Source of the DNA: Cloacibacillus sp.
GTDB taxonomy: Bacteria; Synergistota; Synergistia; Synergistales; Synergistaceae
Reading direction: 5' to 3'
DNA length: 62,837 nt
NCBI GenBank assembly: GCA_036655895.1
Contig: JAVVPF010000004.1
Coordinates: 1 to 62,837 of the forward strand
The notes below the pieces were generated by a model, which saw nothing but the letters and a program-made list of their open reading frames with translations, searched no databases and had not been told where the DNA came from. The translations under genes and the position numbers were made by a program. Within the stretch, counting starts at the first letter, position 1. Every line of letters begins with the position of its first letter. Below are positions 8,253 to 31,322 of the stretch, in pieces.

Positions 8253-9656
8253 TTAGCTGACAATTCTTGTATCTAATTCGAGGATCAGCTCTTCGTCTGT
8301 TGGGATTAGGTTGTCAAAGACAAGTTCGTTGTTTATGAGCATAGACGGGAGATTCTTCACGCCAAGTCTGCTGACTCTTTTTATACCGGCGAGGCTTTTT
8401 ATCAATGTTTCCCTATAGGTAAGTTTGCCTTTATAACGGTCTTTCACTCTAAAGAGCGATTCCATCATGTACTGACATGGGGCGCACCCTTCAGAATCAA
8501 GTGTGACCACTTCAACAAATAGTTTTCCGTCTTCGATTTCAACGTCCGCGAATCCCTCCGCCTCTGTATCACATGAGGCAAGCGCCTCTTCTAGCGATAA
8601 GAAACCGCTGTCTGACGCTGCCTCTTCGTGTAGTACGGCAAATCGGCCGACTGCCTCAAGGTTGCGTTCCGGTGTATCAAATGGAAGATCACATCCAGGT
8701 GAAAGGATAAAACCGCTGCGCCCGCCATCCTCTATGCACTTCCTGGCGTCGTCTACGCATTCTTTCGGGCTGCCGAAGAGCAGCGTCGTCGTAAGGTGCA
8801 TGTTGCCCTCTATTGCAACATTGTATTTTGCCGAAAGCTCTCTCGCAGCAGCAATGCTCACCTGCTCGTCAAAGGCTATGCCGTCTGGAGCGCATTGCAT
8901 CATCAGCTCTATATTTTTTGTTGCGTCTCCGCAGCAAAAGAGCGTCACAAATTTTCCACGGGACTTCGCCTCTCCTATCGCAGGAGCAACGGTATTGGTC
9001 ACATATTTTTTAAAATGGCGCGGAGATATCTGGCTCGTCATCGGATCTACCAGCGCTATAACGTCCGCTCCCGCCTCCGCGTACCATGCGACCATTTTCT
9101 TCACAACATCCGCACAATATTCGAGGACCCGTTGTGCTCTCTCCGGAGCTTCTATCATGTCCGTAAGAAAGCTTGCACCAGAAAGATGCAGCGCCAGCGT
9201 GAAAGGACCGCAAATCAGGCCAAAGATGGCAGTATCTGCTCCCAACGTCTCTTTCAATACCGCAGTCGTCCGAAGCGCGTCCCTGATGCGCCCGAGTTCC
9301 TTTGTAAAAACAGGGAGCTCTTCTATATTTTTTGTTTCAAGCACATGCGAAGCCACCGCTGGAGGATTGTTTTTAGACCACTTCAAAGAACACCCCAGCG
9401 CTTCCGCCTCTATTTGCAAATCAAATACAGAGCAGACGCCGTCTGCAAGATATCTTTGCGCGGCAGCCGTCACACCGCGCACCATATTCTCGGGAGAGAG
9501 AAGGTATTCCGTTGCGTCCATCTCAAGCAGCTTCGCGCAGTGAACTCCGGTAAACGGCACCCACGGCGCACGCTCCACCTCTTCGCAGCGCAGTGATTTA
9601 AAGACGAGCTCTTTTCCATTCTGTTTTTTTGTTTTATCTGTCATGGCTATCACCAT
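8253..9656 (-). CDS. UroD-family corrinoid methyltransferase (MtaA/MtbA-like) fused to a thioredoxin-like domain, copy 1
   Basis: A 467-residue cytosolic protein. Residues ~15-350 are a uroporphyrinogen-decarboxylase fold of the MtaA/MtbA/CmuA group, which moves methyl from a corrinoid protein to a thiol. GPFTLALHLSGA, ALVDPMTSQISP and SPGCDLPFDTP are visible. The usual His-x-Cys-Gly zinc motif reads Phe-Cys-Cys-Gly (residues 240-243), while the distal Cys (about 322) is kept. Residues ~375-467 look like a thioredoxin fold: CAPC at 391-394 after a beta strand, and NLPSML with the cis-Pro at about 437. The start overlaps the upstream corrinoid gene's stop (TGATG), implying translational coupling. 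The methyl acceptor is unknown. Confidence 0.85.
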   Translation of the reverse strand: MVIAMTDKTKKQNGKELVFKSLRCEEVERAPWVPFTGVHCAKLLEMDATEYLLSPENMVRGVTAAAQRYLADGVCSVFDLQIEAEALGCSLKWSKNNPPAVASHVLETKNIEELPVFTKELGRIRDALRTTAVLKETLGADTAIFGLICGPFTLALHLSGASFLTDMIEAPERAQRVLEYCADVVKKMVAWYAEAGADVIALVDPMTSQISPRHFKKYVTNTVAPAIGEAKSRGKFVTLFCCGDATKNIELMMQCAPDGIAFDEQVSIAAARELSAKYNVAIEGNMHLTTTLLFGSPKECVDDARKCIEDGGRSGFILSPGCDLPFDTPERNLEAVGRFAVLHEEAASDSGFLSLEEALASCDTEAEGFADVEIEDGKLFVEVVTLDSEGCAPCQYMMESLFRVKDRYKGKLTYRETLIKSLAGIKRVSRLGVKNLPSMLINNELVFDNLIPTDEELILELDTRIVS

Positions 9657-10297
9657 CACGCCATGTTCATCAGTTTTTTGGCGACAATTACAGCTTCGCT
9701 GGCATTTGCTGAATAATTTGCGCCAATTTGGTCGGCAAAAGGCTGAGAGGTAGGAGCTCCACCTATCATTATTGCCACATGAGCGCCTAGCCCCTCTTCG
9801 ACAACACTGTCGATAACATCTTTCATGGTGGACATAGTGGTGGTGAGCATCGCAGAGATGGCAAGGATGTCAGGAGAGTATTCCCTGATTTTTTCTATGA
9901 TCTCTTTCACCGGTTTATCTACCCCCATGTGAAGCACTTCAAATCCCGCGCCCTCAAGCATCATCCCTACAAGTTTGATGCCGATGTCATGAAGGTCTCC
10001 CTCTACTGTCACCGTGAGTATCTTTCCGGTTTTTCGCACACCGCCGGCGGCAAGGTCCTCTTTTATTATTTCAATGCCGGCCTGTAACGCTTTGGCCGAA
10101 ACCAGCACCTCAGGAACAAACATCTCTCCGTCACGAAAAAGCGCTCCTACCTCATTCATACCCTTTATCAACCCGTCGTTAAGTATCGCCGAAGCATTTA
10201 TTCCGCTCGCGCTGGCCGAGGCGACATTTTCTTTTGTTTTGGAAACATTGCCGTCAAGCACAGATTCTGCGATAGCCGCCAGTATTTCATTTACCAT
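9656..10297 (-). CDS. Corrinoid (B12-binding) methyl-carrier protein, MttC/MtbC-like, copy 1
   Basis: A 213-residue cytosolic protein that holds the cobamide and shuttles the methyl group. Residues 1-90 form the helical cap domain (SVLDGNVSKTKENV, GLIKGMNEVGALFRDGEMFVPEVLVSAKAL). Residues 90-213 are the B12-binding Rossmann domain with GDLHDIGIKLVG (DxHxxG lower-ligand motif), AISAMLTTTM and MIGGAP. Length fits the family. GGGGGG lies ten bases before the ATG. It sits between the MttB homologue (33 bases upstream) and the UroD-thioredoxin gene (overlapping), so it is the shared carrier of these two methyltransferases. Confidence 0.94.
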   Translation of the reverse strand: MVNEILAAIAESVLDGNVSKTKENVASASASGINASAILNDGLIKGMNEVGALFRDGEMFVPEVLVSAKALQAGIEIIKEDLAAGGVRKTGKILTVTVEGDLHDIGIKLVGMMLEGAGFEVLHMGVDKPVKEIIEKIREYSPDILAISAMLTTTMSTMKDVIDSVVEEGLGAHVAIMIGGAPTSQPFADQIGANYSANASEAVIVAKKLMNMA

Positions 10298-10330: not shown

Positions 10331-11773
10331 TTAGATTATCTCAAATTTTTCCTGCAACAGATGGTCCGCCGTATTCAGGCAATCCTCTGGGACACCGAAA
10401 GCAACGGCCGCAGAGCGTATTTCCGCGAGAGTTTGTTTCTCTATTTGAGGCAGGACGTATTTCTCAGCGTTTTTCTTGAGAAACTTTGTCACTTGCGCGT
10501 CAAATTCTTTTTCTTGATCCGTCGCGTAGCGCAATCCTATCTGGGGGATATAGAGCGATTTTTTGAAGTTGCCAAGAGTATGGTCACAGGTGAGATAGTT
10601 TCCTCCCTGTCCCGTCGCCATCGTGAGTTCAACCGCCAGTGTGTCGTCGGTGACTGTGATGTCTTTATCGAGATAGGACATCCTGCGGAAAAGTTCCACA
10701 TCCACGGCAAATTTCTTTGGAGACATCGAGTTAAAACTATCCTGACAGCCGGCTGTGTGCAGAAGAAAATCCAGCCCCTCGTAAAAGCAGGTAGACATTG
10801 TCATCATTGATTCAAAAGCTGACTGCATACTGGGGTATGCCGCGTCAGTAATTGCTGCGGGCCCCCTGCTTGGAAGGTTGTAAAATTTAGCGAGCTTCGC
10901 GGCGTAGCGTATGCCTACGCACATCTCCGGCGCCCCAAAAATTGCGCGGCTCGTCTTCATGTCTGCACCACTCACTGGAATACCATATATGGCGGGGGCG
11001 CCTTCTTCTATCATCTGAGCGAGTGCGATCCCGGAAAGTATCTCCGCGTTTCCTACAGCAATTGCACCGGCAAGTGTTACAGGACCTGTCAGGCCAGTGA
11101 TAACGCCCGATGTGAACGAGAATGGCTGGCGGTACTCGGCGAGTACGCGGATCACATCTACAGTTCTTGCGTCCATCTGCAGCGGAGAGAGGCTGTCCAC
11201 AAGATAGACTGTTTTGGGGCTCTTTTTGAACTCCTCTTTGCCTCCAAAGAGTGCCGCGGCCATCTCCATCATCGTCCGCGTTTCTTTCTCTCCTCCAGCT
11301 GGGCAGAATAGCACCTTTTCCGATCCGCGCAGCAGTGTATACCACATCAACAGAGTGACGACAGAAGCCTCGTATTCATTTGGCTGGCAAAGGATGCCGC
11401 CATTGACATTAAAATCGTCAAGCGACTCTATCTGTTTAAAAAAATACACAAAATCTTTGAGCGTAGAATATCTGGTGCTGCCGTCGAAATCCTGTACATA
11501 GGGCGCTCCATAAGCGGGGATGGCGTAATGCGCGCCGCTTCCCATATCCACATTGTATTTCGGGTTGCGCGCCTCTATTGTAAATCTGGCAGGCGCTTTT
11601 TCCACGTATTTCATCAGTGTCTTTTCATCTATTTTGACGATATCACCATCAACGGCCGCGCCGTGTTTTCTAAATATGGCAAGCGCCTCAGGGCTCGGAT
11701 AACGGATGCCTTCTTTCTCAAGCAACTGTATAGAGGCTTCGTGAATCTTCTGTAATTTTTCATCAAAAGTCAT
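10331..11773 (-). CDS. MttB-superfamily methyltransferase without pyrrolysine, copy 1
   Basis: A 480-residue member of the trimethylamine methyltransferase (MttB) family. It has the N-terminal helix bundle (IHEASIQLLEKEGIRYPSPEAL), the YGAPYVQDFDG region and the barrel blocks VTLAGAIAVGNAEILSGIALAQMIEEGAPAIYG and LLHTAGCQDSF. The frame is continuous with no in-frame TAG, so it belongs to the non-pyrrolysine branch. That branch includes enzymes for glycine betaine, carnitine, proline betaine and butyrobetaine; the substrate here is unknown. I start at the ATG at 11773, with AAGGAG eight bases upstream; a GTG at 11782 overlaps that site. First gene of the mttB-corrinoid-UroD operon. Confidence 0.9.
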   Translation of the reverse strand: MTFDEKLQKIHEASIQLLEKEGIRYPSPEALAIFRKHGAAVDGDIVKIDEKTLMKYVEKAPARFTIEARNPKYNVDMGSGAHYAIPAYGAPYVQDFDGSTRYSTLKDFVYFFKQIESLDDFNVNGGILCQPNEYEASVVTLLMWYTLLRGSEKVLFCPAGGEKETRTMMEMAAALFGGKEEFKKSPKTVYLVDSLSPLQMDARTVDVIRVLAEYRQPFSFTSGVITGLTGPVTLAGAIAVGNAEILSGIALAQMIEEGAPAIYGIPVSGADMKTSRAIFGAPEMCVGIRYAAKLAKFYNLPSRGPAAITDAAYPSMQSAFESMMTMSTCFYEGLDFLLHTAGCQDSFNSMSPKKFAVDVELFRRMSYLDKDITVTDDTLAVELTMATGQGGNYLTCDHTLGNFKKSLYIPQIGLRYATDQEKEFDAQVTKFLKKNAEKYVLPQIEKQTLAEIRSAAVAFGVPEDCLNTADHLLQEKFEII

Positions 11774-11837
11774 TTTGCTCACTCCTTCGATTGAGTATTA
11801 AATTTCGTCAGGATCGAAAATTAAGAATAAGAGGTCT

Positions 11838-15562: not shown

Positions 15563-16291
15563 TTACTTTTGATTTTCTTCTGTTATATTTTCTCGCCGCC
15601 ACAAACATTCTTCCCGTCGGGGACACTCGTGACACATCGACCCCACATGGTTTGCTGAATAGTGCGGCCCTAGGCCTATCAACGATGAATTTGAGATATG
15701 CGGTATCAAAAAGGAAGCGTCGTTAATACTCAGACCTAGCTTTTCGCCGTATCCAAGCCTGTACAGATCGCGCTGTCCGCAAACCTCCCAGCCCGCGACA
15801 GAACCAGGCTGCATTGATGGCCCTACGCCCCAGCCCTTCTCGGAAGCCGCGTCTGCCACATAGTTTCTCATCGCCGTGGATACGTCGGATAGAGCCAACA
15901 CACCAAAAAGATCAAGATAATACATCATAAGACAATCTCCAGATTCTCCATATTTATTCATCAGAGAGATAAGGGGAGTTCCCACGGTGCAGAGCGCTAC
16001 AGCAATCTCTTTAGCGGGGAGCAGATAACCGGCGCGGGGGCCCACATGTAAAATTTCCGCGCTGCCTCCAGGAAGAGAGAGGGTTATATTTTCCGCGTCA
16101 CTTTCATTTTCCAATTTTTGATATATTTCGACGACATACCGCATCTCCAAGCACTTTAATCCCTCTAAATACGCTCTGTCTGCCGCCTCTATCATTTCGG
16201 AAGACGGGGACTTTCTACGGCGACTTTTCTGAGACCTCGCAAACATTGCCTGGGGGGTAAAAGTGATTTCATCAAGTGTGAGTATTTTCAT
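15563..16291 (-). CDS. MetH-activation-domain-like protein with Cys-rich tail, copy 2
   Basis: A 242-residue protein resembling the vitamin-B12-dependent methionine synthase activation domain, which in MetH supports reductive remethylation of oxidised cobalamin. Matching blocks are KEIAVALCTVGTPL, the Leu/Asp-rich segment near residue 130, GWGVGPSMQPGSVAGW, LGLSINDASFLIPHISNSSLIGLGP and the Cys-rich end MCHECPRREECLWRRE (three Cys, possibly an iron-sulfur site). It is a close paralogue of the gene immediately upstream. AGGAG is placed well before the ATG. Last gene of the HyuA-RACo operon; it probably helps corrinoid activation (inference). Confidence 0.78.
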   Translation of the reverse strand: MKILTLDEITFTPQAMFARSQKSRRRKSPSSEMIEAADRAYLEGLKCLEMRYVVEIYQKLENESDAENITLSLPGGSAEILHVGPRAGYLLPAKEIAVALCTVGTPLISLMNKYGESGDCLMMYYLDLFGVLALSDVSTAMRNYVADAASEKGWGVGPSMQPGSVAGWEVCGQRDLYRLGYGEKLGLSINDASFLIPHISNSSLIGLGPHYSANHVGSMCHECPRREECLWRRENITEENQK

Positions 16292-16293
16292 TG

Positions 16294-17043
16294 CTATAGG
16301 CTCCTTTTATTTTGCGTTCCATTAGCTTCTTCCTCTATATTTTCTCTGCGCCATAGGCATTCCCTATACCTTAGGCATTCAGAGCATAGCGAACCTACAT
16401 GATTTGACAAGTAGTGAGGACCGAGCCCTACTATGAAGGAGTTTGAGATGTGGGGAATCAAAAAGGAGGCTGCGTTGATTGTCAATCCTATATTTTCGCC
16501 ATGTCCAAGGCTATAAAGCTCACGCTGCCCTTCAACTCCCCATCCGGCAGCTGAACCTGGTTTCATAGACGGACCAACCCCCCATCCCTTTGAAGCAGCT
16601 ATATCTTCCACATACTTTCTCATGGCGGCTGCAAGTTCATTCAAGGCAAGTATGCCGAAAAGGTCAATGTAATACATCATAAGACAATCATTCGCCTTGG
16701 CATATTTCTGCAAGAGCAAAACCAGCGGCGCACCTACAGTACATAGTACCACGGCAATCTCTTTAGCCGGAATCATATACCCTACGCTACGACCTAGATG
16801 CACTTGTTTTGTGAGCCGCTCAGAAATATACAGTTCAATATTTTCATTTGCGCTGCTGCACTCCACTGTTGGGTAGATCTCTATGGCCGACCGCATTGCA
16901 ACACATTTTACGCCCTCTGCATACGCCCTTTCCGCAGCGTCTGTCATTTCCCGTGAGACGGATCTTTTTCGTTTATCTTCCGGATATCTTGAAAACATAT
17001 CGGACGCGGTAAAATGTATCGTATCCAGCGTTATAGTCTCCAC
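16294..17043 (-). CDS. MetH-activation-domain-like protein with Cys-rich tail, copy 1
   Basis: A 249-residue paralogue of the next gene, with the same landmarks: KEIAVVLCTVGAPL, the CLMMYYIDLFGILALNELAAAM segment, GWGVGPSMKPGSAAGW, IGLTINAASFLIPHISNSFIVGLGP, and a tail LCSECLRYRECLWRRE with three conserved Cys. It starts with GTG at 17043 behind GAGGAGAGG. Only two bases separate its stop from the next start. Lying directly behind the RACo-type gene (16 bases), it probably acts in reductive activation of the local corrinoid proteins. Two adjacent copies match the two corrinoid proteins in the array, which may mean one activator partner per carrier (inference). Confidence 0.78.
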   Translation of the reverse strand: METITLDTIHFTASDMFSRYPEDKRKRSVSREMTDAAERAYAEGVKCVAMRSAIEIYPTVECSSANENIELYISERLTKQVHLGRSVGYMIPAKEIAVVLCTVGAPLVLLLQKYAKANDCLMMYYIDLFGILALNELAAAMRKYVEDIAASKGWGVGPSMKPGSAAGWGVEGQRELYSLGHGENIGLTINAASFLIPHISNSFIVGLGPHYLSNHVGSLCSECLRYRECLWRRENIEEEANGTQNKRSL

Positions 17044-17058
17044 GACAGCATCCTCTCC

Positions 17059-18651
17059 TCAGAACAGCATGTTTTTTACAAACAATTCCTGAAAACTTTT
17101 ATGCGTGGCCAGTTCTATATGCGTCGCCATTTCGCTGATCTCGCAACAGCGTTTTAATCCTTGCGGGTAACATAGAAGTTTCATGGCGCCCAATCCGGAG
17201 CTGTTACCTATTGGATGAATTTTCTTATCCGATATCATTGGCAGCATCCCGACAGTTTGCGCATTGTGAATATTAATATAATTACCAAAGGCGCCAGCCA
17301 TATATATTTTTTCAACTTCTTTTAGATCTTTTCCCGCCTCCTGCAGCATGATTTCTATCCCCGTAGCTATTGCGCTCTTGGCAAGCTGTATCTCACGAAT
17401 ATCCTTCTGAGTTATATAAATTGGATCCGTGGTATTTGTCAGCAGGAATCTCTTGTTCCTTCTATCCATCCTATGATATAAAGACCCTTGAGATAATGAA
17501 GCGAACTTACCATTTGTTTCGATTATTTTTTCATTTATCATCAAAGCGATAGCGTCAACAAGGCCAGAGCCACATATTCCCTTCGGGGGCCTGTTGCCTA
17601 TTATAGTACAATCCACCTCTTCGTTGATAATTGCCACAGTATCTATTGCACCGGACGAAGCACGCATTCCCTGAGAGATCTTAGCCCCTTCAAGGGCCGG
17701 CCCTGCCGCCGCCGAGCAACACAATAAATAGGAGCTGTTGCCAAGCGCCATTTCATTATTGGTACCTATGTCTATCAACAAAGACAGCTTCTCGCTTTCC
17801 ACCATGCCAGAATAGAAGATCCCAGACGTTATGTCACCGCCTACAAACCCGGATATGTTAGGAATAAAACTGACTTTAGCATTCGGGACGACGTTCAGTC
17901 CAACGCTAGACGCCTTTATCTCGTTGAGGCTGATAAAAGGTGGGCGAAATGGCGCTCTACCTATGCTTTGGGGGTCCACGGCGGCAAAGATATGCTCCAT
18001 GGTTGTATTGCCAGAAACTATGATTTGAGACAGATTTACAGGTTGGGCGCCGTTCTTTTCCAGCAGATTCCTTATCATGTCATTAACAGTATGTATTAGT
18101 TTCTTATTAAGGACAACAAGGCCTTCTGGATTGTCAACTATGTAACTTATTCTTGATATTACATCATCGCCATACATTGTTTGAGGATTCACCGCGGAAG
18201 TTACCGCAAGAACAGCAGCGCGCACTGTATCTATGAGGTAGGCTACAAGTGTGGTAGTGCCAATATCAAGCGCAACGCCAAGATTAGCGTGGGAGAACGC
18301 TGCCTCCACAACCATCTCCGTTCCGCAGCCTAACCCGTGGAGTATCTGCATGGACTCATCCGCTCTATCAACCAACGCTACAGTCATCCCGGCTTCTGGT
18401 TTTATCTGACATGCAAGGCGAATATTATTTTTTCTCTCATCGGCTGTCAGAATCCTCATTTCAGTTTCGGTATAAGGTTGGGATGTACCACCTACAGCCA
18501 TCCTGCATTTTCCGCAGATGCCTTTGCCGCCGCATGGGTGTGATATATCCACACCCGCCCTGCATGCGAGTGCATGAAGATCCTTTTCGCCGCAGAGCTC
18601 CACATTCATGTTTTGTTCGCAAAAACGGACGCTGCCTGAAGAGTTCTGCAA
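17059..18651 (-). CDS. RACo-type corrinoid activator ([2Fe-2S] ferredoxin plus ASKHA ATPase)
   Basis: A 530-residue ATP-dependent reductive activator of corrinoid proteins (DUF4445/RACo group). The N-terminal plant-type ferredoxin has its cluster ligands at Cys40, Cys46, Cys49 (HPCGGKGICGKC) and Cys81. A linker domain follows, then the actin-like ATPase with GVALDIGTTTLVAYLID, SGNTTMEHI, LLIDIGTNNEMALG, CCSAAAGPALEGA and AGAFGNYINIHNA. The start must be the TTG at 18651: a stop lies three codons upstream and GGAG is ten bases before it. It lies 25 bases behind the HyuA-like gene and ahead of the two MetH-activation-like genes. Role: reduce Co(II) carriers that fall out of the methyl cycle. 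Confidence 0.92.
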   Translation of the reverse strand: MQNSSGSVRFCEQNMNVELCGEKDLHALACRAGVDISHPCGGKGICGKCRMAVGGTSQPYTETEMRILTADERKNNIRLACQIKPEAGMTVALVDRADESMQILHGLGCGTEMVVEAAFSHANLGVALDIGTTTLVAYLIDTVRAAVLAVTSAVNPQTMYGDDVISRISYIVDNPEGLVVLNKKLIHTVNDMIRNLLEKNGAQPVNLSQIIVSGNTTMEHIFAAVDPQSIGRAPFRPPFISLNEIKASSVGLNVVPNAKVSFIPNISGFVGGDITSGIFYSGMVESEKLSLLIDIGTNNEMALGNSSYLLCCSAAAGPALEGAKISQGMRASSGAIDTVAIINEEVDCTIIGNRPPKGICGSGLVDAIALMINEKIIETNGKFASLSQGSLYHRMDRRNKRFLLTNTTDPIYITQKDIREIQLAKSAIATGIEIMLQEAGKDLKEVEKIYMAGAFGNYINIHNAQTVGMLPMISDKKIHPIGNSSGLGAMKLLCYPQGLKRCCEISEMATHIELATHKSFQELFVKNMLF

Positions 18652-18676: not shown

Positions 18677-20668
18677 TTACTGTTCTGTAACAGTAAAATA
18701 TATATGAGTGCATAAATGCACTTTGCGCGCACCACCGGCTATCCTTACATCTTCATCTTCCCGTTGATAGCTGATCAACGGGATCTTTGCCCCAGCGTTT
18801 TTCGCACGTTCTGTAAGCCACGGACAAACGTCGTTGATAACGCAAAGGACAGCCTCTTCGAGTACTTCAAAATCCCGTATCTCCATCGGTAAATGGGCTC
18901 GATACCCTCCGGCCTGCAGTGGCGCGATGAGTACCGCATATCGCAAATAGAATGTGCCGACAGCCGCTCCGACCGCGCCAGCCACTTCAGCGTCGGTAGG
19001 TAAAATCGACCGTCGAGCGAGCAGCTCCGCGCTTTTTTCTATAAATGCCCACGAAGGCGCTCCGACACCAATAAGATCAGCATTAAGTTTAAGCTGTATG
19101 GCCGAAGCTCCATTTAATGCGGGGGAAAGGGCATAGTCTATCAATCGCTCCCCATCCCCTCCTTTAGCGTAGTGGAACAATTCTTTTGAGAGACTCTTCA
19201 TAAAAACGTTTTTTGCCGCAAGGCGGCTAACTTTTTCACATATTTCACGACAAATATCTTCGGTCGTGTCTCTAGTCTCCGCCATAAGGATGCGGGCTCC
19301 AAATTCGGAAGCCCGTCTATCCCATTTACTAATCTTCCCAAGTACAGCAAGGGCATCTGTGGGCGTAAAACCGGCGAATTGTATAAGCCCTCTCTGTTCC
19401 ATCTCATCAAGCTGCACCATCGCCATATTGAAAAGACGTTCGTTTTCCAACAGTTTATTCACGGGCAGGGGACCATCTTGAAGCATTGAGAGTATGTTTT
19501 TTTCAAAAAACGTGACCGCCAAAGCCTCGCTTCCTTTAAAAACGATAAGAGGTTCCTGTTGTATTGAGCGGGTTGACAATTCTTCAAGATACTCGGAGAT
19601 AACAGGATATTCCGAAGCGGCAGAACAAAGAGATCTTACGCGGCCAGGGCCTATAAGCAGTTCTTGTTTTTTTGAAAACCTTACCCTGCTGTCTCCTCCA
19701 AGGCCAAAGGTCAGTATATCAATTGATTTTACGAGAGTCCGGTGCCCTCCTACGGTGATGCCATCTGTCGAAAGCGCAGGCCTTCCATCTTTATTCAGAT
19801 AGATGATATCTGTCGTAGTGCCGCCGATATCAACCACACAGGATCGGTTTTTGCGCTCTGCGGCACGCGATAGATAACAGGCTCCAAGAGCGCTGGCGGC
19901 AGGGCCGGAAAGCACCGTCTCTATTGGATGGACACGCGCCCAGTCCATACTAACGAGAGAGCCGTCTCCACGTACCACCATAATGGGAGCCACGACGCCA
20001 TATTTGCCGCAAACTTTTGCGACGGAGTTGAGGAGGTCTATGATAATGGGTATCAAGCCAGCATTTAGCGCAACGGTAGTAGCTCTTTTCAGCGCATCCA
20101 AATCTGTCGCCAGTTCATGACCGCATGTAACGACAATATCAGGACGGAGGTCACAGACAAGTTCCCTGGCTCGTAATTCATGCGAGGGATTACGGACCGA
20201 AAAATAGGCGGAAATTGCCACCGTACTCACATTGTGCAGCTCATCTTTACATATCTTTACAAACGCCTCTTCATCAAAAGCGGCGTTTTCATTACCTTTA
20301 GCATCATGACCGCCTTTTACCTGATATACGAAGTCTGTGCCAAATTTTTTCTCAGTTTTATATTTCTCAACGATGTCGTCCGCATACCCTATTAAAATTA
20401 GGGCGCTAGAGCGGAGCTTGCCTTCTACTATCGCATTGGTTGCCAATGTAGTGGCGAGATTTACGGCTTGTACCTGTTCTGGGTGGATTTGCTGAAGAAT
20501 CAGTCGTAATCCGTTTTCAATCGTCATTATTAAATCGTCATGCAGTGTGGGCGTCTTTACTTTAGCAACGACACCTGCCTCGGTATCTTCAAAAAAAACA
20601 AGGTCTGTAAAGGTTCCGCCTGCATCGATGCCTAATATGCCTTTTTTGCGCATTGCTTGAGAAACCAA
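18677..20668 (-). CDS. Hydantoinase/oxoprolinase A-family (HyuA-like) ASKHA protein
   Basis: A 663-residue protein of the HyuA/5-oxoprolinase superfamily. It opens with the phosphate-binding loop GILGIDAGGTFTDLVFF, then LATTLATNAIVEG, ALNAGLIP, VRGDGSL, the ETVLSGPAASALGA loop and CVVDIGGTTTDIIYLN. These are the standard ATPase elements. No HyuB partner is adjacent. Relatives open cyclic amides with ATP, but members also occur beside corrinoid methyltransferases, where the role is unsettled. The TTG at 20668 is taken as start; the ATG at 20653 is possible. First gene of a four-gene operon with RACo and the two MetH-activation-like proteins, behind a promoter with a shared palindromic motif. 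Confidence 0.82.
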   Translation of the reverse strand: MVSQAMRKKGILGIDAGGTFTDLVFFEDTEAGVVAKVKTPTLHDDLIMTIENGLRLILQQIHPEQVQAVNLATTLATNAIVEGKLRSSALILIGYADDIVEKYKTEKKFGTDFVYQVKGGHDAKGNENAAFDEEAFVKICKDELHNVSTVAISAYFSVRNPSHELRARELVCDLRPDIVVTCGHELATDLDALKRATTVALNAGLIPIIIDLLNSVAKVCGKYGVVAPIMVVRGDGSLVSMDWARVHPIETVLSGPAASALGACYLSRAAERKNRSCVVDIGGTTTDIIYLNKDGRPALSTDGITVGGHRTLVKSIDILTFGLGGDSRVRFSKKQELLIGPGRVRSLCSAASEYPVISEYLEELSTRSIQQEPLIVFKGSEALAVTFFEKNILSMLQDGPLPVNKLLENERLFNMAMVQLDEMEQRGLIQFAGFTPTDALAVLGKISKWDRRASEFGARILMAETRDTTEDICREICEKVSRLAAKNVFMKSLSKELFHYAKGGDGERLIDYALSPALNGASAIQLKLNADLIGVGAPSWAFIEKSAELLARRSILPTDAEVAGAVGAAVGTFYLRYAVLIAPLQAGGYRAHLPMEIRDFEVLEEAVLCVINDVCPWLTERAKNAGAKIPLISYQREDEDVRIAGGARKVHLCTHIYFTVTEQ

Positions 20669-21812: not shown

Positions 21813-23051
21813 TTATTTTCTGTACGCGCCGTTATTCAGATAGTCAAGCAGCGCTTCTTTTGACATATTGTCTATGCCAAGATATTCGAGCGTGTAGCCC
21901 TCATTAAAGAAATTTTTCTTATGCATAGCGCCCGCAAGGATAATCATGGAATCAATAATAGGCGTAGGGACATCATAAGCCTTCCCAAGTTCATGGTAGA
22001 TTTTGCAGCCAACTGGGACGTCCTCGGTTATATATCTGTGATGGATGCTGTTGGGGCCTGTGTTTGCCTCCGTCGTAGGTTCATCCAGCGGCAGCCACAT
22101 GTTATCTTTGCCATTTTTGTCAAGCCCCATATACTCCTGCGCCAGAATACTGCGGCGGTTAAAGAACGACTCATACGAATACTTCGGGACGCCGACACCA
22201 ATAGCTTCAGCAATGGCTATCTCTTCGTTGTAGAACTGATACTGAACTTCGCATATAGCAGGGCAGAGAGCATGCGCATACATAGAGTAGCCGCTTTTAT
22301 CAAAGCTGCCGAATATTTTTCCCCAGTTCTCCATAGTTGAAACACCAAGGAGAGAGGCTGGAACATGAATGACGGGATTGATGTTGGCAAAGCCAATGTC
22401 AAGGACGGTATTGCCTTTTGAAGCGCCGTCTCCATACGTCACCGCATCAATACAGGGCAGAGATTTTGAGGCTTCTACAAAATCCTCCCAATCCGTCATC
22501 GGCAGCGTAGCGCCACGAAGCGTTATTGCACGGTATTTCACACCTACATGGGGAAGCATCATACCGCCGACCGTCTCTATGCGCGTTCCGTAGGGAGCGC
22601 TGGACCATGCGCCTACAATGACCTTTTTCTGACACCCGGCCTCCCTCATCATCTTGCGCAAGATGAGCGATGCAAAGTTATCTGTAAAAATGCTTATAAC
22701 CTGTCCGTCTTCAAGATGAGGGATCAACTGACGGAAAAAGTGTTCATGCGCGAAAGCTGGGGCAGCTACAACAATATGTCCAGCGCCCTTTACAGCCTCC
22801 GCCATATCGCTTGTCAACATGTCAAATTTAGCATTTCCAGAACGATTGAAACCATAAAGGTTCCTCTGAATACCGTCGAGTTCTATTCCGGTCTTGTCAA
22901 GGTGCGCCAGAGTCTTTTCTGCAAATGGCGACATGTCAAAGAGGCGAACCTCCCTGCCGGCCAGTTTCATATCCGCAGCACAAGTTTTTCCAACAGCACC
23001 GCCACCCAGTACCGCGATTGGCATATCTTTAAGATAATCCATCTTACTCAT
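21813..23051 (-). CDS. NAD/NADP-dependent octopine/nopaline (opine) dehydrogenase family protein
   Basis: A 412-residue cytosolic oxidoreductase. An N-terminal Rossmann domain begins PIAVLGGGAVGKTCAADMKLAGREVRLFD (GGGAVG dinucleotide loop) and includes HIVVAAPAFAHEHFFRQLIP. The C-terminal helical domain has the opine-dehydrogenase-type region NPVIHVPASLLG with its catalytic His and NTGPNSIHHRYITEDVPVG. The family links or cleaves an amino acid and a 2-oxo acid through a secondary amine. The ATG at 23051 has GGAGG eight bases upstream. It is 26 bases behind the second corrinoid gene, so it probably handles the secondary amine left by demethylation, or a methylated opine (inference). Confidence 0.85.
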   Translation of the reverse strand: MSKMDYLKDMPIAVLGGGAVGKTCAADMKLAGREVRLFDMSPFAEKTLAHLDKTGIELDGIQRNLYGFNRSGNAKFDMLTSDMAEAVKGAGHIVVAAPAFAHEHFFRQLIPHLEDGQVISIFTDNFASLILRKMMREAGCQKKVIVGAWSSAPYGTRIETVGGMMLPHVGVKYRAITLRGATLPMTDWEDFVEASKSLPCIDAVTYGDGASKGNTVLDIGFANINPVIHVPASLLGVSTMENWGKIFGSFDKSGYSMYAHALCPAICEVQYQFYNEEIAIAEAIGVGVPKYSYESFFNRRSILAQEYMGLDKNGKDNMWLPLDEPTTEANTGPNSIHHRYITEDVPVGCKIYHELGKAYDVPTPIIDSMIILAGAMHKKNFFNEGYTLEYLGIDNMSKEALLDYLNNGAYRK

Positions 23052-23077
23052 TTCAAAAACCTCCATATTCAGTCAAT

Positions 23078-23719
23078 TTATTTAGAAAGAGACAAAAGCT
23101 GCTTTGCAACAGTTACGGCTTCATTAGCATCTGACGAATAATTTGCACCGATCTTATCCGCAAACATCGGAGAAAGCGGAGCGCCGCCAACCATTACCGG
23201 CATATTATCTGTAAGCCCTTCCTCTTTTAGTGCGTCTATTACATCTTTCATGGTTGCCATAGTGGTGGTAAGCATTGCGGAGAGCCCCAATATTTCCGGC
23301 TTGATTTCTTTGACCTTCTCCACGATCTTAGCCGCAGGGACGTCTACACCGATGTTGATAACTTCAAAACCGGCCCCCTCCAACATCATACCGACAAGTT
23401 TTATGCCTATATCGTGCAGGTCACCCTCTACGGTAACCATCAGTATCTTCGCGGAAGCCTCTGCTCCAGAGGCTAAAAGAAGCGGCTTTATAAGCGCCAC
23501 GCCAGCCTGCATCGCCTTTGCGGAAACCAAGACCTCAGGGACAAACATCTCCCCCTCTTTAAAAAGGACGCTGACCTCATCCATACCGGAAAGCAGACCC
23601 TTGTTTAATATTTCCTGCGCAGGGATCCCTTCGTCGATCGCTTTTTGCACATTAGTCGTTACCACACTTACAGAACCATCGACCAGCGCCTCTGCTATAG
23701 TCTCAAATAGTTGACTCAT
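23078..23719 (-). CDS. Corrinoid (B12-binding) methyl-carrier protein, MttC/MtbC-like, copy 2
   Basis: A 213-residue paralogue of the first corrinoid protein, identical in length. The cap domain carries GLLSGMDEVSVLFKEGEMFVPEVLVSAKAMQAG. The B12 domain carries GDLHDIGIKLVGMMLEGAGFEV (His is the expected lower cobalt ligand), LSAMLTTTMATMKDV and VMVGGAPLSP. AAGGAG precedes the ATG. It lies 51 bases behind the second MttB homologue and 26 bases ahead of the opine-dehydrogenase-like gene, so it should accept the methyl group removed by that MttB enzyme. Confidence 0.94.
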   Translation of the reverse strand: MSQLFETIAEALVDGSVSVVTTNVQKAIDEGIPAQEILNKGLLSGMDEVSVLFKEGEMFVPEVLVSAKAMQAGVALIKPLLLASGAEASAKILMVTVEGDLHDIGIKLVGMMLEGAGFEVINIGVDVPAAKIVEKVKEIKPEILGLSAMLTTTMATMKDVIDALKEEGLTDNMPVMVGGAPLSPMFADKIGANYSSDANEAVTVAKQLLSLSK

Positions 23720-23770: not shown

Positions 23771-25228
23771 TCAATCGATCAGTTTTCTCCACTTACTTTC
23801 ATGCTCTTCAAGAATCTGCAGCATTGACGGGTCGATTTCTGGATTGACAGGAGCCTCTATCAGCTCCAGTGTTTTATCCTTTATCTTTTTACTAAATGCA
23901 TCCGCCGCAATTTCGCCAGTGAGGCTTCTGTCAAATATTTTTGAATACCAGACTGATTTAAAATTCTCAAGAGTTGAATCTTCTTCAAGATAGTGTCCTC
24001 TCGGGCCGACCTTTTTAATCGTCTCAAAGAGGAACGCCTCGTCAGAACAATCTATCCCGCCTTGATAGACCCGCAACATATCCAATACTTCATTTGTATA
24101 CACATATAATTCCGGGGATATCGCTGAGGCATGGTTCATAACACCAAAGTCATGAACGATATCGGCGCCGGTAAGCGCGGTAGAAAGAAGAGCCATCGTA
24201 ACCTCTGAGGCGGCCTGCATATCAAGATTCTGAGAATCTGTGCATCCGGCTGTGCCAAAGAACGGTATATTGTAATAATCTGCCATCTCAGCTGAGGCGG
24301 CTATTCCAAAATGGAACTCCGGCGCGCCGTATGAACCCGTCGTTGTTTTCATGTCCAGAATCGTCGGCATACTGCCTGCAATAAACGCAGCGCCAGGATA
24401 CGCCAACTGCTGGATCACAAGACCAGAAAGAATTTCCGCAAAATTTTGAGCAAGAGCAGCCGCGAGAAAAATCGGGGAGGTGCCGCCACGCATCGAATAT
24501 GGCATGTAGACGCAAGGCACGCCGGCCTCAGAACACATCATCAGCTTTTTGAGACTGTCCCCGCTGTGATTAAAAGGAGGGACTGGTTCGCAATATCCAA
24601 AGATAAACGGCTTTTCTCTAAGTCCCTGGGCTCCGCCCTTTATATCCCTCGCCAAATCAATGATGTCTCTATACGTAGGGGCATAGTCCGGGCTGAAATA
24701 CATGGGCTTCGTGGTATATTTCAGCGTATTGGAGAAATTCATACGACCGGCTATAGTGGGAGGGCAGTCTGATATCAGACCATTACTCGCAAGGTAATTT
24801 ACATTTGGAAGCGCATCAGCCACCTTGGCTACGTGGGAGGAGGTCTCCATTGTATGACTGGTGATTTTGCTGGTCACAGGGTCTACATATGACAGGCTGC
24901 TGGTGGACCCGCCAAAGTATTTATTCACTTTATTAACATCCATAGCCAGCTCGCCGTTGACGGTATATAGTTTAAATCCTGATGGGACGCTTTTAAGCGC
25001 TTTGTCCACCATACAGCTCGGTATGGAAATATATCCTTTTCCAATTTCCGTTGCCCCGTTGTCAAGAAGTAAAGAACGAACAGTATCGTCTCCGATTATC
25101 ATCCCCACTTCTTCCATGATCCGCCGTGCATACGAATCTATTTTCTGACATTTTTCATTGTTGAGAATGCGGAGCTTATATTCTGGTGAAATATAATGTT
25201 TCACACTCTCTCTTTTCATCTTCCTCAT
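23771..25228 (-). CDS. MttB-superfamily methyltransferase without pyrrolysine, copy 2
   Basis: A 485-residue MttB-family enzyme, only distantly similar to copy 1. Visible blocks: IDSYARRIMEEVGMIIGDDTVRSLLLDNGA at the N-terminus, YFGGSTSSLSYVD, GGTSPIFLAAALAQNFAEILSGLVIQQLAYPGAAFIAGSMP and FFGTAGCTDSQNLDMQAASE. The frame has no internal TAG, so it is a non-pyrrolysine member. GGAGGAG precedes the ATG by seven bases. It sits between a PrpD-family gene and the second corrinoid gene. The divergence from copy 1 suggests a different methylated substrate, handled together with the opine-dehydrogenase-like enzyme. Confidence 0.9.
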   Translation of the reverse strand: MRKMKRESVKHYISPEYKLRILNNEKCQKIDSYARRIMEEVGMIIGDDTVRSLLLDNGATEIGKGYISIPSCMVDKALKSVPSGFKLYTVNGELAMDVNKVNKYFGGSTSSLSYVDPVTSKITSHTMETSSHVAKVADALPNVNYLASNGLISDCPPTIAGRMNFSNTLKYTTKPMYFSPDYAPTYRDIIDLARDIKGGAQGLREKPFIFGYCEPVPPFNHSGDSLKKLMMCSEAGVPCVYMPYSMRGGTSPIFLAAALAQNFAEILSGLVIQQLAYPGAAFIAGSMPTILDMKTTTGSYGAPEFHFGIAASAEMADYYNIPFFGTAGCTDSQNLDMQAASEVTMALLSTALTGADIVHDFGVMNHASAISPELYVYTNEVLDMLRVYQGGIDCSDEAFLFETIKKVGPRGHYLEEDSTLENFKSVWYSKIFDRSLTGEIAADAFSKKIKDKTLELIEAPVNPEIDPSMLQILEEHESKWRKLID

Positions 25229-29880: not shown

Positions 29881-31257
29881 TTATATATTTGAGAGTTTCT
29901 TGTCCAATTCTTTTATCAATTCTTCCTCTGTCGGTACGATATTATCAAATACGAGTTCGTTGTTGATCAACATCGACGGTAAATTTTTCACGCCTATTGC
30001 CCCTACCCTTTTGATCCCGCCAAGACTCTTTATCAGAGTTTCTCGATAGCTTAGCTTATCTCCATACCTATCCTTTACTCTGAACAGTGACTCCATCATA
30101 TACTGACATGGCGCGCACCCCTCGGAATCCAGCGTTACAACCTCCACGAATAATTTACCCGGTTCTATGATGACATCTTCAAAACCTTCCGCGGCTGCGT
30201 CGCATCCAGCAAGAGCTTCATCAAGAGAAAGAAAACCGCTGATTTTGGACGGCTCTTCTCCAAGCACGGCATATTTACCAACTGCCTCAAGGTTATATTC
30301 AGGGGTATCAAACGGCAGATCGCATCCAGGAGAAAGAATAAAACCTTTTTTTCCGCCTTCTTCCAGACATTTTTTCGCGTCGTCAACGCATTCGACAGGA
30401 CTTCCAAAAAGGAGCGTCGTGGTGAGGTGCATATTTCCCTCTATGGCGACATTGTATTTTTCGGAAAGCAATCTAGAGTTAGCAACGCTCACCTGTTCGT
30501 CAAAGGCTATACCGTTAGGCTCGCACTGCATCATCAGTTCAATATTTTTTGTGGCATCTCCGCAGCAGAAAAGGGTCACGAGCCCTCCGCGGGATTTAAC
30601 TTCCTTGATTGACGGCGCAACCGTTGACATTACATATTTCTTAAAGTGTCTTGGGGAAATTTGGCTTGTCATAGGATCTACAAGCGCTACAACGTCAGCC
30701 CCAGCCTCAACATACCATGCAGACATTTTTCTAGCCGCCTCTGCACAGAAAGTAAGAATTCTATTAGCATGGTCCGGATCTTCTATCATATCAGTCAAAA
30801 ATTTAGCCCCGGCCAAATGAAGCGCAAGAGTGAACGGTCCGCAGATCAGACCAAAGATGGCCACATTCTCACCAATTTCTTTCTTCAACATAGAGGTAGC
30901 TCGAAGAGCTTCCTCTATGCGCCCCATTTCCTTAGTCAGTTCAGGCAGTTCTTCCAATTTCTTTGTTTCTAAAATATGGGTAGCAACCGCGGGAGGGTTG
31001 TTTTTGGACCATTTTAAAGAACAACCAAGGGCCTCAGCCTCTATCTGGAGATCAAAAACAGAACAAACGCCGTCTGCAAAATATTTTTCGGCAGCAAGTT
31101 TTACTCCATCTACAATATTTCGCGGGGATTTCAAATAACTTTCCGCATCTATTCCTAATAACTTCGCACAATGGACGCCCGTGAATGGAACCCACGGTAT
31201 CCTACCTACCTCTTCACACTTAAGCGCTTTGATAACCAGTTCTTTACGCATTGGCAT
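29881..31257 (-). CDS. UroD-family corrinoid methyltransferase fused to a thioredoxin-like domain, copy 2
   Basis: A 458-residue close paralogue of the protein at 8.3-9.7 kb with the same two-domain layout. The UroD barrel has ALVDPMTSQISPRHFKKY, the altered zinc motif Phe-Cys-Cys-Gly (TLFCCGDATKNIE) and the retained SPGCDLPFDTP. It is followed by a C-terminal thioredoxin-like domain with SEGCAPCQYMMESL and NLPSMLINNELVF. The frame opens at 31320, but that ATG sits directly behind a TATAAT box. Homology with copy 1 points to 31257 or 31251, with GGGGAG about 13 bases upstream. It is transcribed alone, without an MttB or corrinoid partner beside it, and may serve the second corrinoid module. 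Confidence 0.85.
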   Translation of the reverse strand: MPMRKELVIKALKCEEVGRIPWVPFTGVHCAKLLGIDAESYLKSPRNIVDGVKLAAEKYFADGVCSVFDLQIEAEALGCSLKWSKNNPPAVATHILETKKLEELPELTKEMGRIEEALRATSMLKKEIGENVAIFGLICGPFTLALHLAGAKFLTDMIEDPDHANRILTFCAEAARKMSAWYVEAGADVVALVDPMTSQISPRHFKKYVMSTVAPSIKEVKSRGGLVTLFCCGDATKNIELMMQCEPNGIAFDEQVSVANSRLLSEKYNVAIEGNMHLTTTLLFGSPVECVDDAKKCLEEGGKKGFILSPGCDLPFDTPEYNLEAVGKYAVLGEEPSKISGFLSLDEALAGCDAAAEGFEDVIIEPGKLFVEVVTLDSEGCAPCQYMMESLFRVKDRYGDKLSYRETLIKSLGGIKRVGAIGVKNLPSMLINNELVFDNIVPTEEELIKELDKKLSNI

Positions 31258-31322
31258 GATATTAATGCCACTCCCCTTCGTTATTTTATTTCCTTCTTTT
31301 GATGAGCTGTAATTTTTCATGT

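Follow-up and report, generated by a model that had tools for sequence, protein, structure and literature searches.

A UroD-thioredoxin fusion protein in corrinoid gene clusters of Cloacibacillus and other bacteria as a candidate acceptor-side methyltransferase

The known corrinoid-dependent methyl-transfer systems end either in coenzyme M, with an acceptor-side methyltransferase (MTII) of the UroD type bearing a His-Cys-Cys zinc site, or in folate, with an MTII of the MtgA/MtrH type. The window, by which we mean the whole analysed stretch of 62,837 nucleotides from Cloacibacillus sp., contains two genes in which a UroD-type domain appears to be followed by a thioredoxin-like C-terminus, and this raises the question whether such a fusion is real, which step it would catalyse and what a thioredoxin would do there. 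Both genes lie on the minus strand; a plus-strand reading of both coordinates is interrupted by stops all along and was rejected. The relevant features are:

8253..9659, minus strand: UroD-thioredoxin fusion, copy 1 (468 aa, GTG start)
8625..9620, minus strand: UroD/MtbA-like barrel of copy 1 (residues 14-345; PF01208; 4ay7, Z 43)
9186..9188, minus strand: H158 of copy 1, invariant in fused and split proteins and never His in unfused relatives
8931..8939, minus strand: F241-x-C243 of copy 1, at the site of the H-x-C zinc ligands of MtbA, with His changed to Phe
8691..8693, minus strand: C323 of copy 1, second active-site Cys, an in-frame TGA (predicted Sec) in ten split homologues
8256..8522, minus strand: thioredoxin-fold domain of copy 1 (residues 380-468)
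8475..8486, minus strand: CAPC motif of copy 1 (residues 392-395; CxxC invariant in 85/85 homologues)
29881..31320, minus strand: UroD-thioredoxin fusion, copy 2 (479 aa)
30106..30117, minus strand: CAPC motif of copy 2 (residues 402-405)

The initial annotation had described a full UroD/MtaA-type domain followed by a thioredoxin-like C-terminus with CAPC and a cis-proline, and a second copy of the same layout. Pfam bears out the first part, since PF01208 matches residues 16-337 of copy 1 (E 6.5e-61) and residues 25-347 of copy 2 (E 7.3e-61), and the scores of 206.7 and 206.5 bits against a cut-off of 23.9 place both proteins in the UroD superfamily. URO-D is the only Pfam family matched by the fusion protein, PF02007 (the folate MTII family of MtgA/MtrH) giving no match. 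A simple HemE was rejected because TIGR01464 reached 66 of 303 bits, far under its cut-off, and the fusions also stay far under the NCBIfam cut-offs for MtaA (147.8 of 400 bits), MtbA (141.9 of 600) and TIGR01463 (147.2 of 235.4). The C-terminus has as its nearest named family the HUIPC-type thioredoxin-like (seleno)proteins of NF047660, with E-values of 2.7e-9 for copy 1 and 7.8e-10 for copy 2; the scores of 37.0 and 38.8 bits against a curated cut-off of 105 leave it outside HUIPC_Trx_selen. In both copies the UroD domain thus precedes a CAPC-bearing thioredoxin-like domain, and the copies are 76.5% identical across the former and 82% across the latter. Among 85 full-length homologues both cysteines of the CxxC motif, P438 and Phe241 are invariant; in copy 1 P438 lies within an 'LP' at the expected cis-proline position, and the stretch TLDSxxCAPCQYM is extremely conserved.

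Structure prediction agrees with this assignment. A whole-protein AlphaFold model built on 54 homologues reached a pLDDT of 93.8 and a pTM of 0.92, and the closest solved structure to its barrel is MtbA (4ay7/4ay8, Z 43). The C-terminal domain folded alone (pLDDT 80) matched thioredoxins with a best Z of 12.7 (rmsd 1.6, 91 residues; Foldseek E 6.9e-5) and its sequence profile matched the archaeal thioredoxins 1fo5 and 1nho, so that the predicted fold was confirmed; together with the invariant C392, C395 and P438 the domain combines thioredoxin fold, CxxC and cis-proline. The linker was predicted with a confidence of about 43-57 in the isolated domain versus about 85-91 in the full chain. Since it is well predicted only in the full chain and the pTM is high, the model suggests that the thioredoxin domain packs against the barrel in a fixed position. 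The fusion of a UroD barrel with a thioredoxin domain is real.

The fusion is not confined to this contig. The genome of the window encodes five fusions, which are its sole UroD-family proteins, and a scan of public genomes yielded 80 loci with full-length fusions (38-77% identical). Full-length homologues occur in Synergistota, Firmicutes, Bacteroidota, Verrucomicrobiota/Kiritimatiellota, Lentisphaerota and Planctomycetota. One seed of the scan was CAPCQYMM, which possibly biases it toward this motif; ten members found by profile with no CAPC seed (L091-L100) carry the same motifs, and the divergent fusion L183 has CAAC in place of CAPC. When 151 Synergistota genomes were searched by profile, no fusion scored below about 637 bits and almost everything else reached 196 bits at most, the exceptions above 196 being partial matches. 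In 32 fusion genomes this type of thioredoxin domain occurs fused only, with one copy per genome and no free-standing copy, two other matches scoring about 24 bits versus 141-183. In ten Clostridia-related genomes, reached through a search for true HUIPC thioredoxins that gave two of them first, the UroD and thioredoxin parts are separate adjoining genes (the split form). Because the fusions span many phyla and the split forms are conserved among themselves, an assembly artefact or a local fusion was ruled out. In a FastTree analysis of the UroD domains the fused, the split and the fused plus split sequences were each monophyletic (support 0.90, 1.0 and 0.91). The taxonomic class of the split genomes also has a fused member, L183. 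The UroD-thioredoxin fusion is an old and widespread family, and its occurrence as one protein in many phyla and as adjoining genes in ten genomes speaks for an enduring functional link of barrel and thioredoxin.

Which reaction the protein would catalyse can be approached through its neighbours in the window:

9656..10297, minus strand: corrinoid protein beside copy 1 (B12-binding, 213 aa; PF02310/PF02607)
10331..11782, minus strand: non-pyrrolysine MttB-family methyltransferase, the MTI of the copy 1 cluster (PF06253, 2.1e-101; no internal stop)
15563-16291 and 16294-17043, minus strand: two tandem MetH-activation-like proteins (phmmer kinship)
17059..18651, minus strand: RACo-like corrinoid reductive activase (PF14574, 3e-81)
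23078..23719, minus strand: second corrinoid protein (Pfam)
23771..25228, minus strand: second MttB-family methyltransferase (PF06253, 1.1e-63)

Copy 1 and the corrinoid-protein gene overlap in the sequence GTGA, which holds the GTG start of the former and the stop of the latter. The fusion stands third, behind a substrate methyltransferase (MTI) and then a corrinoid protein; the MTI is of the MttB type in the window, MtmB in Synergistota, MtaB in L025 and a UroD-type MTI in Lutibacter; the components of a three-component corrinoid system are thus encoded side by side. The second methyltransferase cluster of the window also encodes a hydantoinase-A-like protein (18677-20668) and an opine-dehydrogenase-like protein (21813-23066). 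The MtmB-family MTI beside the fusion in the Synergistota loci L013-L017 and L005 has no internal TAG and is therefore non-pyrrolysine; that of L015 matches PF05369.

Like the fusion, MtbA and MtaA consist of a UroD barrel (24-25% identity to 4ay7) with two active-site cysteines and are partnered with MttB, MtmB or MtaB and a corrinoid protein. In betaine-type systems the same MTII step would be filled by a corrinoid:tetrahydrofolate methyltransferase of the MtgA/MtrH type, which belongs to a different family (PF02007). A separate MtrH/MtgA gene was found in none of 33 fusion genomes (the window's own and 32 others), a few weak matches lying inside MetH-length frames. The own genome contains no PF02007, and its PF00809 matches are only DHPS- and MetH-sized frames. 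Classed by length and score, the pterin-binding family is represented in 29 of the 33 genomes only by DHPS-like or long, mostly MetH-length frames or not at all, and a short extra PF00809 frame is present in the other four. That no methyltransferase of the MtgA/MtrH type was found in these genomes makes the fusion the strongest candidate for MTII, and from the gene context we infer that it quite probably acts as such. The split genomes tested, in contrast, also carry MtrH, so that the split pair need not be the sole MTII there.

Could the protein serve the corrinoid cofactor instead? The initial annotation had offered reduction of the corrinoid as one role of the CxxC domain. This option found no direct support, since the window and the clusters of several relatives carry a separate gene for a RACo-type reductive activase. 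That the fusion is not an MTII at all but a corrinoid repair or activation factor would fit the RACo and MetH-activation-like genes near it in several clusters. The tandem MetH-activation-like proteins (15563-17043) have no Pfam or NCBIfam match of their own, yet phmmer relates them to ORFs adjoining the fusion in L026, L056 and L089, and the L026 ORF matches PF02965. Dedicated activases already exist, however, the barrel most resembles MtbA and the order MTI-corrinoid protein-fusion mirrors the MTI-C-MTII sets of methanogens, and we regard a repair factor as hardly credible.

The active site of the barrel has been remodelled. In the alignment to MtbA, C243 and C323 occupy its two Cys ligand positions, whereas the His of the H-x-C zinc motif is Phe in 85/85 fusions; it is His in MtbA and in 23/23 unfused Synergistota relatives. 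All 85 fusions thus have Phe-Cys-Cys where MtaA and MtbA have His-Cys-Cys, and in addition to the C-terminal thioredoxin they differ from these enzymes by the gained residues His158 (85/85) and His40 (83/85). The switch from His to Phe together with the gain of His158 is found in 52/52 fused plus split proteins and in 0/24 unfused ones. His158 aligns with a Tyr of tobacco UROD, which we take to be the equivalent of human Tyr164, an active-site residue, and judged from this alignment it may replace the lost zinc ligand. His-Cys-Cys is regarded as the signature of S-methyltransferases (PMC10418091). Like the fusion, the Mlp proteins of type 1 mlp gene clusters are bacterial homologues of UroD-family S/Se-methyltransferases that are accompanied by a corrinoid protein and an activase, but they have His-Cys-Cys almost invariably; in that paper thioredoxin appears in a reference title only (PMC10418091).

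The split form bears on the second cysteine. In the two genomes reached first its thioredoxin carries TLDSVQCAACGYMM, and the UroD gene beside it has TGA at the codon of C323, in the context PG-U-DMP (loci L166, L167 and L173-L182, e.g., L167:7316-8347). The TGA and the frame downstream of it are kept in 10/10 split loci, at 65-100% identity to the query UroD; in the tenth genome (L182) the thioredoxin gene is in another frame. A GTTCC-NNN-GGAAC stem begins about 15 bases past the TGA in all ten, with shuffle z-scores from -0.9 to -3.7, and in the most divergent locus the stem is extended even as the encoded residues differ. SelB is encoded in 10/10 split genomes, but equally in every other sampled genome of that class, so its presence is permissive only. 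The TGA is predicted to be read as Sec. The split UroD is absent from the 2026 selenoproteome review (PMC13188914) and would, by the literature searched, be an unlisted selenoprotein. A single TGA met in the Synergistota profile search (G104) showed no matching motif on inspection. In two genomes the split pair lies in a cluster with corrinoid proteins, small thioredoxin-like proteins, G3E GTPases, MtrH and a RACo-like protein; family libraries were used to check MtrH, TSCPD and the thioredoxin-like proteins, and the remaining genes were assigned by reading their sequence. The true members of NF047660 lie in this cluster, and in contrast to them the domain of the fusion has no Sec and is fused. 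Four tiny tandem thioredoxin-like genes (CRKC, CPSC, CTGM, HCIPC) lie at L166:8923-10069 beside corrinoid proteins and G3E GTPases. As the zinc His is altered in the thioredoxin-bearing clade and the second Cys is an in-frame TGA in the split form, an active site of the thiol/selenol type served by thioredoxin is favoured. The proposal that the CxxC domain reduces the zinc-site cysteines gains some weight accordingly, the zinc His being lost exactly in this clade.

That the loss of the His and the gain of the thioredoxin coincide exactly could also be read as pointing to the metal: the thioredoxin cysteines, or the relocated His158/His40, would complete or load a zinc site to which a neighbouring G3E GTPase delivers the metal. 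A G3E/COG0523 (CobW) GTPase, a partner gene and not part of the same protein, lies directly downstream of the fusion in 59/77 loci, and in nine Firmicutes loci (L020, L022, L023, L025, L027, L033, L034, L082, L088) a small Thioredoxin_3-like protein is encoded between the two. In methanogens the genes of COG0523 proteins lie together with those of the zinc-dependent MtaA/MtaB (PMC2770081), and with the downstream GTPase this hints at a metal-site role. In the Synergistota loci, however, the G3E gene, unlike in most loci outside this phylum, does not adjoin the fusion, Sec at C323 would be unusual as a plain zinc ligand and His158 could stand in for the lost ligand without any CxxC. We therefore consider this role possible but doubtful.

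Alternatively a CxxC thiol might itself accept the methyl group in turnover and hand it on, replacing coenzyme M. This would accord with the lack of an MtgA/MtrH-type MTII in the fusion genomes, with the invariance of both cysteines and with the separate thioredoxin of the split form, which could diffuse. S-methylcysteine is a stable thioether, though, no enzyme for the onward step was found, and two cysteines next to a cis-proline groove suggest disulfide chemistry, which makes a methyl carrier very unlikely. Also quite unlikely, in our view, is direct methyl transfer to tetrahydrofolate or to a small thiol (homocysteine, sulfide), in which the thioredoxin would serve only for docking or for protection against oxidation. 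The genome does encode MetF and a pterin-binding frame of MetH size, and fusions also occur in Lutibacter in a cluster with a P450 gene; the extreme conservation of TLDSxxCAPCQYM and the predicted Sec of the split form, on the other hand, suggest more than protection. The Lutibacter clusters (L026, L031, L089) consist of a UroD MTI, a corrinoid protein, the fusion and a G3E GTPase, followed in L026 by the P450 and a ferredoxin-like gene. Reductive formation of methane from methyl-corrinoid by a dithiol was judged unlikely because this P450 suggests an oxygen-using lifestyle.

Our first choice for the thioredoxin domain is therefore redox service of C243/C323 (Sec) or of the acceptor, before the metal-site role and the methyl carrier. 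An MTI of the MttB, MtmB, MtaB or UroD type would methylate the corrinoid protein and the fusion would take the methyl group off, at a remodelled UroD S-methyltransferase site made of Phe-Cys-Cys (or Sec) and possibly the relocated His. The thioredoxin domain would act intramolecularly, keeping or returning C243, C323/Sec or a bound thiol acceptor to the reduced state in turnover. To this explanation as a whole, an MTII with a remodelled site and its own thioredoxin, we assign a probability of about 0.5. A bolder version appears unlikely: a protein thiol or selenol (C323/Sec or the CxxC) would accept the methyl group from the methyl-corrinoid protein, the built-in thioredoxin would drive turnover, and coenzyme M and folate would thereby be replaced in the MTII reaction across many bacterial phyla.

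A literature search, which did not reach subscription papers, found no description of a UroD-thioredoxin fusion or of a Sec-containing UroD. The features of the fusion point to an undescribed, thiol-based handling of methyl groups and raise the question of a UroD methyltransferase that works by a thiol/selenol pair and an attached thioredoxin in place of the zinc His. To our knowledge many bacteria possess an MTI and corrinoid proteins yet lack any known MTII; the fusion family would fill this gap and allow methylotrophy to be predicted in such bacteria.
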